Source of the DNA: Acidithiobacillus ferruginosus
GTDB lineage: Bacteria; Pseudomonadota; Gammaproteobacteria; Acidithiobacillales; Acidithiobacillaceae
Assembly (NCBI RefSeq): GCF_018854495.1
Contig: NZ_JABBDR010000229.1
Coordinates: 1 to 32,903, forward strand
Length of the DNA stretch: 32,903 bases
Direction of reading: 5' to 3'
How positions within the stretch are numbered: the stretch's first letter is position 1; each line of letters starts with the position of its first letter. A model generated the notes under the pieces. That model searched no databases. It worked only from the letters and a program-made list of their open reading frames with translations, and was not told the origin of the DNA. The translations under genes and the position numbers were made by a program. Positions 1-29,179 of the stretch are shown here, in pieces.

Positions 1-272
1 GATAATCCACTTTCCGCCCCCGCTCTACGACTTACTCCATTTCAGAGAGGCGACAACTACCCTGACACCGGGGGGGTCTGAAGGAAGTCCAATCCGAAAT
101 TGCGGGGCGATGAACAAGAAGCGGATAGGAGGCGTGATGCACCCGGGACGAACGGGCACATGACCGCGAAGTCCTCGACGGGCAACCAGCATTGAAAGCC
201 ATGGAGAAGTCAGCAATCATAGGACCATCAATTTGCTTGATCACACTCACCCCTATCCCGAATAGATGTTAG
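1..272. other. Gene-free left edge; possible mobile-element remnant
   Basis: No convincing gene is seen here. Two overlapping minus-strand frames are open (about 25-216 and 32-250), but their translations are rich in Arg, Ser and Pro, have no recognisable motif, and neither has a clear ribosome binding site. The wording of these translations resembles spurious peptides often produced by non-coding sequence near mobile elements. That is only an impression from memory. No terminal inverted repeat or target duplication is visible inside the window, so a remnant cannot be proved. Confidence 0.3.
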
Positions 273-17732: not shown

Positions 17733-17742
17733 TGGAAGATCG

Positions 17743-17837
17743 GGTCGAGGGGCGCTGCAGTCGTCATGCCTCCTGCGCTGATCCGGCCGGATGATTCCCC
17801 GGCCGGGAAGGCGTCGGAGTGACGATCAGGCTCGGCC
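17743..17837 (+). promoter_or_regulatory. SAH riboswitch upstream of ahcY-metF
   Basis: The leader matches the SAH riboswitch architecture. P1 is GGTCGAG (17743-17749) pairing with CTCGGCC (17831-17837). The conserved core GAGGGGCGCTGCAG (17747-17760) follows, and CAGGCTCGG (17827-17835) closes it. P2 is TCGTCA (17761-17766) with TGACGA (17820-17825), extended by TGCC (17767-17770) with GGCG (17810-17813). A GC-rich arm CCGGCCGG/CCGGCCGG (17783-17806) tops it. This class binds S-adenosylhomocysteine, usually lies before ahcY and turns expression on. Here it lies 54 bases before the ahcY start. I see no obvious terminator after it, so control of ribosome access is more likely, but the switching partner is not clear. 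Confidence 0.88.
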
Positions 17838-17891
17838 TATGCTTCCCATCTGTAAAACCGCGCTCGCTTTCATGCTCAAGGAATGACTTAC

Positions 17892-19298: not shown

Positions 19299-20116
19299 TG
19301 GCGCATTCCGTCGAGTTCTTTCCCCCCAAAAATGCCGCGGGTGAGGAACGTCTGCGGGAGGCGATAACCGCGCTTCTCCCCTTGGGTCCCGAGTATGCTT
19401 CGGTGACCTTCGGGGCGGGCGGGTCCACCCGTGAACGTACTTTTGCGACGGTGACCATGATCCGCCAGGATTATGATCTGGAGGCGGTGCCGCATCTCTC
19501 GTGCATTGGATCTACGGAAGCCGGGATACGGGAGATTCTCGAAGATTACCGAAAGCAGGGCATACGCCGTATCGTGGCCCTGCGCGGTGATTTGCCGGAA
19601 GGCATGGAGAATCCCGGCCACTTTCAGCAGGCTGCGGATCTGGTTGCGTTTATCCGTCATTTCGGGGGCTTCGAGGTGTATGTGGCGGGCTATCCGGACA
19701 TCCATCCCCGCGCGACTTCCGCCCGGAATGATGTGATGCACTTGGCCGCCAAGGTGCGGGCCGGGGCGGATGCGATTATCACCCAGTACTTTTTCAATCC
19801 CGACGCCTACTTGCAGTTGCGCGACGAGTTGCAACGGGAGGGCGTTGAAGTGCCGTTAGTGGTCGGCGTCATGCCCATCACCAATTTTGAACAGATCTCC
19901 CGTTTTTCTGCCATGTGCGGCGCCGATATCCCCCAATACCTGCGGCGGCGGATGGATGCGTACGCCGCCGATCCGCAGTCCCAATATCAGTTGGGAATCG
20001 AGTTGTTGAGCAGGCAGTGTCAATTACTGTTGCGGGAGGGGGCACCGAGCCTGCATTTTTACACCCTGAATCAGGCCGAGGCGACGGCGGCGATCTGGCG
20101 TAATCTCGGTTTTTAG
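19298..20116 (+). CDS. metF: 5,10-methylenetetrahydrofolate reductase
   Basis: A 272-residue flavoprotein that reduces methylene-THF to methyl-THF, the methyl donor for remaking methionine from homocysteine. The N-terminal VEFFPPKN holds the catalytic Glu6. VTFGAGGSTRERT (36-48) and VALRGDLP (93-100, Asp98) are FAD/folate site signatures. ITQYFFN and LVVGVMPI follow the family order. It is shorter than E. coli MetF (about 296) but covers the whole barrel. Its ATG overlaps the ahcY TGA by one base, so translation is coupled and the SAH riboswitch likely governs both. This joins SAH removal with homocysteine remethylation. Confidence 0.96.
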   Translation: MAHSVEFFPPKNAAGEERLREAITALLPLGPEYASVTFGAGGSTRERTFATVTMIRQDYDLEAVPHLSCIGSTEAGIREILEDYRKQGIRRIVALRGDLPEGMENPGHFQQAADLVAFIRHFGGFEVYVAGYPDIHPRATSARNDVMHLAAKVRAGADAIITQYFFNPDAYLQLRDELQREGVEVPLVVGVMPITNFEQISRFSAMCGADIPQYLRRRMDAYAADPQSQYQLGIELLSRQCQLLLREGAPSLHFYTLNQAEATAAIWRNLGF

Positions 20117-28035: not shown

Positions 28036-28812
28036 TCAGGAGATGCGGGTCCAGAGGGATTGCAGGCTGCGCAGGAGCGTGGCATCGGCGCCTCGTAGGC
28101 GATGATCGACGCCTGGTAAGGGGCGGATGGCCAGTTCTGGCGCATGGGTGCGGGCGGCGAACCGATAGCTGAGGGCGAGGGGCACGGCCTCATCGGCGCT
28201 GCCGTGCAGAATCTCCACCGGACAGTGCAGGTGCGGCGGAAAGCGCAGCAGGTCGTAGCGCCAGCTGTCCGCGACCAGATCGAAGCGCATGTGCAACTCA
28301 CCGAGCCCGTAAGGATCCTCCCAGCTGCGCAGATTGCTGTCCTCCCAGGCTTGCCTTTCGGCAGCGGGCAAACGCCGGAAAATTTCCTGAATGAAGTTGT
28401 AAGCGGGGGCAATGAGCAGCAGGGCGCGGATCTGTTCCGGCCATCGGGTGGCAGCGATGGTGCCCAGCCATCCGCCCATGCTGGAACCTACCAGCAGCAC
28501 CGGACGATCCTGCAGCATATGATGTAGAATCAACCGGAGGTCGGCCAGGTACCGGGACAGGGTCAGCGCCTGGAATGGTCCATCGGAGCGACCGACGCCA
28601 CGTGGATCAAAGCGTACCCAGGACCAGCCTTGCGCCTGCGCGTTGCGGGCGAGGATCTGCGATTTGGTGCCTTCCATATGGGAGGCGAAGCCAGGAAGGA
28701 AGATGCCGACGGGGTCGGTATGGGTTTCGTGAATGAGTCCGCAGACGCGGTCGCCATTGGGGTGAACCAGAGTAAAAGCTCTTTCGGCCGACGAGGACAC
28801 AGGCTGCTCCAT
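28036..28812 (-). CDS. Alpha/beta hydrolase (ABHD10/BEM46-like)
   Basis: A 258-residue cytosolic hydrolase with a full catalytic triad: Ser111 in the nucleophile elbow GSSMGG (109-114), Asp207 in HGSADEAVP and His237 in GVDHRL. FLPGFASHMEGTKSQ (38-52) forms the oxyanion side and FDPRGVGRSDG (68-78) is a typical early motif. Similar proteins are esterases or acyl-protein thioesterases; the substrate is unknown. The start is odd. The ATG at 28812 lies 2 bases after the T-run of an intrinsic terminator and has no ribosome binding site. A GTG at 28800, with GGAG 6 bases upstream, would shorten the protein by 4 residues and is a good alternative. The next gene on this strand is groES, which has its own promoter. 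Confidence 0.88.
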   Translation of the reverse strand: MEQPVSSSAERAFTLVHPNGDRVCGLIHETHTDPVGIFLPGFASHMEGTKSQILARNAQAQGWSWVRFDPRGVGRSDGPFQALTLSRYLADLRLILHHMLQDRPVLLVGSSMGGWLGTIAATRWPEQIRALLLIAPAYNFIQEIFRRLPAAERQAWEDSNLRSWEDPYGLGELHMRFDLVADSWRYDLLRFPPHLHCPVEILHGSADEAVPLALSYRFAARTHAPELAIRPLPGVDHRLRGADATLLRSLQSLWTRIS

Positions 28813-28814
28813 GT

Positions 28815-28839
28815 AAAAAAGGGCAACCCGGAGTCGCCC
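28815..28839 (-). terminator. Intrinsic terminator of small-RNA unit 2
   Basis: Minus-strand GGGCGAC-TCCGG-GTTGCCC (7 bp with one G-U pair) is followed directly by six T residues. On the plus strand no T-run follows, so its direction is minus. It ends 2 bases before the first possible start codon of the hydrolase gene. Confidence 0.75.
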
Positions 28840-28840
28840 T

Positions 28841-28877
28841 AAAACCACAAAGGAGAAAAGAAACATGCGCTCGCAAC
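28841..28877. repeat. Direct repeat copy A (core of small-RNA unit 2)
   Basis: A 37-base copy of the element also found at 28982-29018. The two agree except for one substitution and two single-base indels; the last 17 bases or more are identical. On the plus strand it reads as AGGAG, a purine spacer and ATGCGCTCGCAA, starting a possible 28-codon frame (28865-28951). On the minus strand it is the unpaired centre of the small-RNA candidate. Confidence 0.9.
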
Positions 28878-28898
28878 CAGCTACTGGCTGCAATCGGA

Positions 28899-28927
28899 AT
28901 ATTAGCAAAATGCGGAAGGGCTGGCAA
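28899..28927 (-). promoter_or_regulatory. sigma70 promoter of small-RNA unit 2
   Basis: Minus-strand TTGCCA (28927-28922) and TAATAT (28904-28899) with the ideal 17-base spacing, matching 5 of 6 and 4 of 6 consensus bases. The predicted start, about 28891-28894, coincides with the foot of the 5' hairpin. Confidence 0.65.
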
Positions 28928-28934
28928 GTTACAT

Positions 28935-28948
28935 TCCGACCGGTCGGA
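28935..28948. promoter_or_regulatory. 14-bp perfect palindrome, possible operator
   Basis: TCCGACCGGTCGGA is a perfect 14-bp palindrome lying 7 bases upstream of the -35 of small-RNA unit 2 and directly after the T-run of unit 1. Its form resembles operators of TetR-family regulators, but no such regulator is in the window. It might also be a hairpin that helps unit 1 end. Confidence 0.45.
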
Positions 28949-28949
28949 T

Positions 28950-28981
28950 AAAAAGAAAGGGCGGAACCAAACGGCCCGCCC
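28950..28981 (-). terminator. Intrinsic terminator of small-RNA unit 1
   Basis: Minus-strand GGGCGG pairs with CCGCCC (28981-28959), with GCC/GGT extending the stem inside, and is followed by TTTCTTTTT. It differs in sequence from the unit 2 terminator but sits at the same place in the unit. Confidence 0.75.
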
Positions 28982-29018
28982 AAAACCACCAAAGGAGGAA
29001 GAAACATGCGCTCGCAAC
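28982..29018. repeat. Direct repeat copy B (core of small-RNA unit 1)
   Basis: Second 37-base copy, 141 bases from copy A. On the plus strand AGGAGG (28993-28998) stands 7 bases before ATGCGCTCGCAA, which starts a 12-codon frame with the same first four residues (Met-Arg-Ser-Gln) as the frame in copy A. On the minus strand it carries CCTCCTTT. Confidence 0.9.
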
Positions 29019-29179
29019 TATCACAGCCGCTTGCAAAGGATTAGAGAACAGGGGCAGCAGAAAGTTCCATGCGTCTGTGATTTCTTTCCCGGACCCCGTA
29101 TCCTCGGTGTGGTGGCGTAGGTCCTGCGGTCTTCAGGAACGAATCGGCTGTGGAACCTGTCTCTATGGGTGAGGAAAAA

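Follow-up and report, generated by a model that had tools for sequence, protein, structure and literature searches.

Two similar units lie side by side on the minus strand of the window, that is, the whole stretch of 32,903 nucleotides of Acidithiobacillus ferruginosus DNA that was analysed. The question raised by this locus is whether these units are RNA genes and, if so, what their RNAs do. The reading preferred here, with a probability of about 0.7, is that they are predicted sibling sRNAs acting in trans through an anti-Shine-Dalgarno word, that unit 1 is driven by envelope stress, and that the RNAs would block the ribosome-binding sites of selected mRNAs.

The two units are paralogous and can be read directly from the minus strand of positions 28815-29034. 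Both follow a common plan of a 5' hairpin, a CU-rich core, and an intrinsic terminator. From the 5' end, the hairpin is followed by GCGAGCGCATGTTTC, the anti-Shine-Dalgarno word (CCTCCTTT or TCTCCTTT), GTGGTTTT, and the terminator hairpin with its T run (Table 1). The CU-rich core resembles the anti-Shine-Dalgarno end of 16S rRNA. The original prediction described this core as unpaired. The anti-Shine-Dalgarno word is indeed present, and the core would be mostly single-stranded, although weak local pairs are possible within it. The limit of unit 1 also had to be moved: it had been placed at 29032, whereas unit 1 begins a few bases further 5', near 29034. The dsbD gene (NF001419) is on the plus strand at one side of the units and an alpha/beta hydrolase gene is at the other; groES and then groEL come after the hydrolase gene, as judged from reading frames by eye. 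Elsewhere in the window, there are an SAH riboswitch at 17741-17872 on the plus strand (RF01057, 47.2 bits) and, at the window edge (58-232, plus strand), a match to Group II intron D1-D4-3 (RF02001, 43.5 bits).

Table 1. Features of the two units and their surroundings (positions in the window)
Feature	Position	Strand	Basis or remark
Unit 1	about 29034-28950	-	predicted sRNA of ~84 nt
Unit 2	about 28893-28815	-	predicted sRNA of ~79 nt
Sigma-E (RpoE)-type promoter of unit 1, GGAACTT-N16-TCTAA	29041..29068	-	present in 25/25 unit-1 family loci
Predicted RNA start of unit 1	near 29034	-	inferred from promoter position
5' hairpin of unit 1, GCAAGCGGCTGTGATAGTTGCGAGC	29010..29034	-	helices 1 and 2 of covariation analysis
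Core of unit 1, GCATGTTTCTTCCTCCTTTGGTGGTTTT, with anti-Shine-Dalgarno CCUCCUUU	28982..29009	-	mostly invariant across 53 units
Intrinsic terminator of unit 1, T run interrupted	28950..28981	-	helix 3 of covariation analysis
12-bp palindrome CCGACCGGTCGG between the units	28936..28947	-	candidate regulator site for unit 2
Sigma-70-type promoter of unit 2 (TTGCCA ... TGCTAATATT, extended -10)	28898..28927	-	consensus scan, TTGCCA-17-TAATAT
5' hairpin of unit 2	28873..28891	-	covariation, locus alignment, folding
Core of unit 2, GCATGTTTCTTTTCTCCTTTGTGGTTTT, with anti-Shine-Dalgarno UCUCCUUU	28841..28868	-	mostly invariant across 53 units
Intrinsic terminator of unit 2 with T6	28815..28840	-	terminator scan (9 pairs), covariation
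Alpha/beta hydrolase gene (Pfam PF12146, E 5e-20)	28036..28800	-	directly downstream of unit 2

The case for RNA genes rests on comparative evidence, since the folding energies of the single sequences, which are mildly unusual (z of -1.35 for unit 1 and -2.73 for unit 2), would not by themselves prove an RNA. Early alignments of all units (A1 and A2) placed the terminators wrongly, so that the covariance model R1 was restricted to the 22 rows of alignment A3. These comprise unit 1 and the units of the sister family; unit 2 of the family, identical rows, and unit 1 of locus L024 were excluded. The 53 units were then realigned by R1 (alignment A6) and counted for covariation. Among the 48 distinct sequences, 643 of the 658 stem cells (97.7%) are paired, and 8 of the 14 stem pairs show changes on both sides. 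In the terminator helix of unit 1 (helix 3), all of the cells (100%) are paired and five of the six pairs are changed on both sides. The covariation score was 0.365, compared with 0.183 in shuffled alignments (0 of 500 reached 0.365) and 0.031-0.082 in controls with slid partners; an alignment fitted to the structure, as this one is, leans towards it, but the margin over the controls is large. The stems contain 90 G-U pairs when the minus strand is taken as RNA and 1 when the plus strand is taken. This wobble asymmetry indicates that the minus strand is the RNA strand. The pattern of a selected RNA that had been proposed is thus borne out by the covariation and the G-U counts, and it is as good as certain, as far as sequence comparison goes, that two sibling RNA genes under RNA-level selection are present on the minus strand. 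Decay of the stems with retention of the plus-strand frames had been named beforehand as the opposite outcome; instead, the stems are kept across the 48 sequences.

Search with the covariance model, which the original prediction had proposed, recovered the units across the family and the sister family with their stems kept. A DNA search of 57 relatives gave matches in 27. Both units are present in 24 of the 29 family genomes, unit 1 alone in one (G006), and neither in four; three of these four genomes are 61-71% complete and the fourth (G024) is 99% complete. Both of the sampled genomes of the sister family have the unit pair at the corresponding place, in addition to a third, diverged copy on a contig other than that of the pair (L155 on C7 of G029; L156 on C39 of G030). 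The two copies of the pair within one sister-family genome are nearly alike, which means that an old single duplication and a repeated or homogenised duplication are both possible. In the genome of A. ferruginosus itself, only the two window units were matched by R1 at E up to 0.1. Spread of the units by viruses or plasmids was rejected: no exact 22-mer match was found in viral contigs, and a 60-base relative had no match in plasmids.

The regions upstream of the two units differ. GGAACTT-N16-TC(T/C)AA precedes unit 1 in all 25 family loci, with a spacing of 16 and a near-constant distance to the RNA, and a promoter of this type is upstream of unit 2 in 0 of 24 family loci. A looser form, GAACnn-N16-TCnnA, is found at all four sister-family units. 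We take GGAACTT-N16-TCnnA to be the sigma-E consensus. Unit 2 is preceded by a putative sigma-70-type promoter, whose extended -10 element GCTAATAT is kept across the family loci. The palindrome CCGACCGGTCGG is present between the units in family loci, exact or slightly changed, with few matches elsewhere; it was not seen in the sister-family loci and is decayed in L025, the sole family locus without unit 2. Comparison of the family loci thus shows that the two copies have predicted promoters of different types. This means that the units have their core in common and not their control.

In a near relative (G014), RpoE is encoded (equivalog TIGR02939, 348 bits; cut-off 236), followed by a 220-residue frame at the position of the anti-sigma factor (no Pfam match) and then by a trypsin/PDZ protease of the DegP type. 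No sigma-E-type promoter was found upstream of rpoE or of the protease gene in G014. In addition, both strands of 400 kb of this relative (800,000 bases) contained no strict match, against a chance expectation of about 0.4, and the loose form gave 10 matches in the 400 kb versus 19 when read backwards. In view of these regulon negatives, the sigma-E reading is based on the conservation of the promoter at this locus, and the probability of the main reading, like that of the class-wide reading discussed below, was lowered. Sigma-E control of unit 1 would be a new and testable point, predicted from this locus. It should be mentioned that neither this promoter, nor the downstream hydrolase, nor the class-wide likeness was part of the original prediction. 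MicA, RybB, and MicL are sigma-E-dependent sRNAs of enterobacteria. Unit 1 resembles such RNAs as a short predicted sRNA behind a GGAACTT-type promoter and in its envelope-stress logic; the enterobacterial RNAs use other seeds and act mainly on envelope-protein mRNAs.

The hydrolase gene adjoins unit 2 in 24 of the 24 family pair loci and is also present in both sister-family loci (in L150, as judged by eye from the N-terminus). In a collection of named genomes, its closest relatives are encoded in loci of Acidithiobacillus ferriphilus, A. ferrivorans, and A. ferrianus and in genome bins. In the window, translation of the hydrolase more likely starts from the GTG at 28798-28800, which follows GGAG, than from the ATG near the terminator edge, which has no Shine-Dalgarno site (28798-28813 region). 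The gap from the T run of unit 2 to the hydrolase start is about 8-21 nt in the family (by eye) and ~36 nt or more in the sister family. In L159 (G006), unit 2 is missing, the palindrome is decayed, and a TTGTCA...TAGTAT-like stretch precedes the hydrolase (by eye), resembling a promoter of the gene itself.

With such a constant neighbour, the units might instead serve as attenuators in a 5' leader of the hydrolase gene: transcription from the promoters ahead of them would mostly end at the terminators of the units, and read-through would give the hydrolase mRNA. The short gap in the family leaves little room for a separate hydrolase promoter, and the gap is longer in L159, the locus without unit 2; both points, together with the invariable adjacency, agree with this idea. 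It seems unlikely nevertheless, because there are two units, each with its own promoter-like site and a full terminator, because the core is fixed beyond the needs of an attenuator, and because the third copies of the sister family have the same core on contigs apart from the pair. A leader role for the hydrolase and an sRNA role do not exclude each other, and the closeness of the end of unit 2 to the gene makes a cis role of unit 2 possible. Far less probable still is a function of the plus strand, on which AAAGGAGG(A)AGAAACATG would be the ribosome-binding site and start codon of small proteins. The Shine-Dalgarno spacing ahead of the ATG is good, and a 12-residue frame starting with MRSQ or MRLQ is found in 15 of the 27 first units. 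This recurrence was given little weight, because the frame lies wholly within the conserved core and hairpin and would recur anyway. The frames starting from the core ATG in the other units range from 7 to 188 residues, or are open past the 600 bases read (in one of 27 first and one of 26 second units), so that there is no common product. Furthermore, 84% of the stem cells pair on the plus strand compared with 98% on the minus strand, and the terminator runs and promoter-like sites are oriented to the minus strand. Small genes on the plus strand were therefore rejected on the basis of their variable frames and the strand-specific pairing and G-U wobbles. The two neighbouring genes very probably give short regulatory RNAs able to pair with ribosome-binding sites.

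Possible targets were sought at several levels. A rough rule applied to 400 kb of DNA from a relative gave 316 predicted genes. The core of unit 1 is predicted to bind their start regions more strongly than coding interiors by 2.46 kcal/mol, compared with a mean of 0.62 and a maximum of 1.34 kcal/mol for 30 shuffled cores. A preference of this kind is to be expected of any anti-Shine-Dalgarno word. Among single sites, the most stable duplex (-38.8 kcal/mol) was at the start of an aldehyde dehydrogenase gene, and its start-spanning form is present in one of 29 family genomes. None of the sites spanning a start codon was conserved family-wide; the matched genes differ by genome, save for near-relative pairs with a common site. 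No strongly complementary target conserved across the family was found. In the A. ferruginosus genome outside the locus, the complement of neither core had a match of 16 or more of 18 bases, up to three mismatches being allowed, and a single long near-perfect target was therefore rejected. Two partial matches to the core of unit 1, with up to three mismatches, can be regarded as leads: a site ACAGGAGAAAGAAATATG at the gene for the HU protein in 10 of 17 genus genomes, and a site at a moeA-like gene in 7 of 17. Both genes were read in the A. ferruginosus genome; HU was confirmed by Pfam, and moeA was named by eye. The duplex of the HU site with the core of unit 2 is -27.7, a value equalled by 2.5% of the sampled start regions. 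The target prediction proposed at the outset thus yielded HU and the moeA-like gene as candidates and no conserved start-spanning target. Of the duplicated trans-acting sRNAs repressing many mRNAs that had been proposed, the duplicated RNA genes are upheld by the covariation, while for repression of many mRNAs in trans these searches gave only leads.

On the preferred reading, envelope damage would release RpoE (sigma-E) and so switch on unit 1, and unit 2 would be transcribed from a promoter of the housekeeping type, which a protein bound to the palindrome CCGACCGGTCGG might tune. The core, probably helped by Hfq, would pair with ribosome-binding sites in selected mRNAs and stop translation. 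The pair would then reduce the synthesis of a set of proteins in normal growth and envelope stress alike. At the very low pH at which Acidithiobacillus grows, its envelope is always at risk of damage. The pair would be a concrete regulator with a predicted inducer. Regarding Hfq, a query with the E. coli protein had no match in the DNA searched, which consisted of parts of genomes; the Hfq of A. caldus is reported, in the available part of the source, to complement an E. coli hfq mutation (PMC13029372). The literature search, limited to listings of papers, gave no paper on a base-pairing sRNA of Acidithiobacillus and no description of such RNAs in this lineage, in line with the earlier suggestion that it may be undescribed in this lineage.

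No sRNA family of Rfam matched the window units at curated cut-offs. The units are nevertheless related in plan to two known groups. With the NmsRb model (RF02877), both window units align over the full length at 28.3 and 21.9 bits, below the gathering score of 52. This likeness agrees with the proposed kinship to tandem sibling sRNAs of other proteobacteria. The Neisseria RNAs NmsRA and NmsRB (also RcoF, NgncR_162/163) are, like the window units, tandem siblings with a 5' hairpin, an anti-Shine-Dalgarno stretch, and a terminator; unlike the window units, they have two anti-Shine-Dalgarno stretches and a second stem-loop. Their expression is reported, in the part of the paper available, to be under RelA (PMC5362039), in contrast to the sigma-E-type promoter at unit 1. 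According to the same text, these siblings lower enzymes of the TCA cycle via the anti-Shine-Dalgarno stretches, and nmsRB plasmids could not be introduced into E. coli (PMC5362039). The gonococcal siblings are reported, in the excerpt available, to block ribosome-binding sites (PMC9973317).

The other group is RF02278 (Betaproteobacteria toxic small RNA; cut-off 50 bits), to which neither window unit gave a match at E values of up to 10. Its double-hairpin RNAs (ncS03, ncS05, ncS27, ncS62, and bdhR1) have a CU-rich stretch complementary to ribosome-binding sites and a terminator and occur in several copies per genome, as here. Judging from the available sections, the CU-rich stretches of the Burkholderia RNAs are predicted to lie over ribosome-binding sites (PMC5688073; also PMC4603805), overexpression of ncS27 slowed growth, and the authors point to the likeness with the tandem NmsRs (PMC5688073). 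The Burkholderia copies are described there as non-tandem (PMC5688073), whereas the window units are tandem. S17S of Bordetella pertussis, by its description in the available text, is like the window units in having a conserved CU-rich 5' region of 27 nt, a terminator, and targets with complementary ribosome-binding sites; it reportedly arises by cleavage of a longer RNA, unlike the predicted window units (PMC11722255). In the same portion of the paper, the S17S region is described as conserved in Betaproteobacteria and as kin to bdhR1 of RF02278, and BP2158 as directly repressed (PMC11722255). As far as these partial sources go, laboratory-tested relatives repress via such stretches (PMC5362039, PMC9973317, PMC11722255). 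By this kinship and by the core, repression in trans through the anti-Shine-Dalgarno word is the likely mechanism of the window RNAs. Because the scores are below the cut-offs, the window units were filed in neither RF02278 nor RF02877.

Is the family part of a wider group? In a phylum sample of 398 genomes, R1 had matches in 7 at an E value of 0.01 or lower, the A. ferruginosus genome included. R1 also gave weak matches in further families of the class. From these came an exact 16-mer, CCTCCTTTGGTGGTTT, which is present in 45 of 369 class genomes, compared with 1 of 369 for the reversed control. In 20 of 31 copies (29 loci), CTCCTCCAT is directly ahead of CCTCCTTTGGTGGTTT, mostly before a GC-rich terminator; three copies have no clear T run. 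An Rfam scan covered 20 of the 29 class-level 16-mer loci. At E up to 0.02, 14 of these loci had 17 matches to RF02278, with scores of 32.5-48.5 bits that do not reach the cut-off of 50, and the other six had none. In a separate locus of the A. ferruginosus genome, L031 (C38 of G000, 19874-19919, plus strand), a different short CCTCCCTTTGG stretch precedes a strong terminator; RF02278 gave 27.8 bits (E 0.002), below the cut-off and the best in this genome.

A second model, R2, was built from 25 copies chosen from 30 extracted sequences, and none of these copies is from Acidithiobacillia. Two sister-family copies were left out as members of the order under test, and L180-L182 because of odd long loops; the three copies without a clear T run (two of the three in L171 and one in L183) and L162, which belongs to the family, were never taken. 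R2 nevertheless matched both window units, unit 1 with 34.3 bits (E 4e-7) and unit 2 with 26.3 bits (E 7e-5) in 105 kb; the remaining two matches in the window had E values above 0.5. Against the whole A. ferruginosus genome, unit 1 had an E value of 1.1e-5 and unit 2 was absent at E 1e-3. At E up to 0.001, R2 matched 144 of the 369 sampled class genomes, the 25 seed copies matching by construction. In ten loci scanned among the 30 strongest R2 loci, Rfam release 15 gave no sRNA at the cut-off. In the R2 alignments of four Acidithiobacillia copies, the window units not among them, one pair is broken in the small hairpin around the anti-Shine-Dalgarno loop, which together with the terminator makes up the double hairpin of RF02278. 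A 23S signature that separates beta from gamma lineages was readable in 12 of 80 R2-matched genomes; 11, including that of A. ferruginosus, had the gamma form and one the beta form. This suggests that the putative group is not mainly betaproteobacterial. Given the class-wide likeness, the wider group as delimited by these models reaches beyond the Acidithiobacillus lineage.

Convergence of real RNAs on an anti-Shine-Dalgarno word before a terminator might explain why the units resemble RF02278, NmsR, and the wider group. Since the core is CU-rich, part of the wider-group match could have arisen in this way; the lack of RF02278 matches at the window units, the GCATGTTTC part, which is seen in this taxonomic order only, and the absence of the sigma-E-type promoter ahead of wider-group copies (0 of 49 regions) also agree with independent origins. 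Yet the common stretch CCTCCTTTGGTGGTTT goes 8 bases past the anti-Shine-Dalgarno word, and the reversed sequence used as a control has next to no matches. Furthermore, the third copies of the sister family are intermediate: L155 and L156 scored 54.5 and 52.0 bits with R2, and their CTTGTTCCTTCCTCCTTTGGTGGTTT form bridges the units of the order and the class copies. Convergence is thus considered a minority explanation, although it is a more serious one than the leader role. Common descent would place the units in a class-wide superfamily of sRNAs mimicking the 16S tail, which would extend across Gammaproteobacteria and in which one Acidithiobacillia copy would be under sigma-E, with a sibling for unstressed growth; this extended reading is tentative, with somewhat less than an even chance. 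If it is true, RNAs so far filed as betaproteobacterial (the toxic sRNA, the double-hairpin RNA, and S17) and as neisserial (NmsR) would form one superfamily, and damage to the envelope of an extreme acidophile would directly set off an RNA brake on translation initiation. The findings in Burkholderia, Bordetella, and Neisseria could then, if the family is one, be joined and transferred to many genomes with unannotated RNA.

Tandem arrangement is also found in the wider group: two or three copies, ~100-150 bases apart, are present in L171 (G693), L183 (G563), and L170 (G591). One genome, G712, has six R2 matches.
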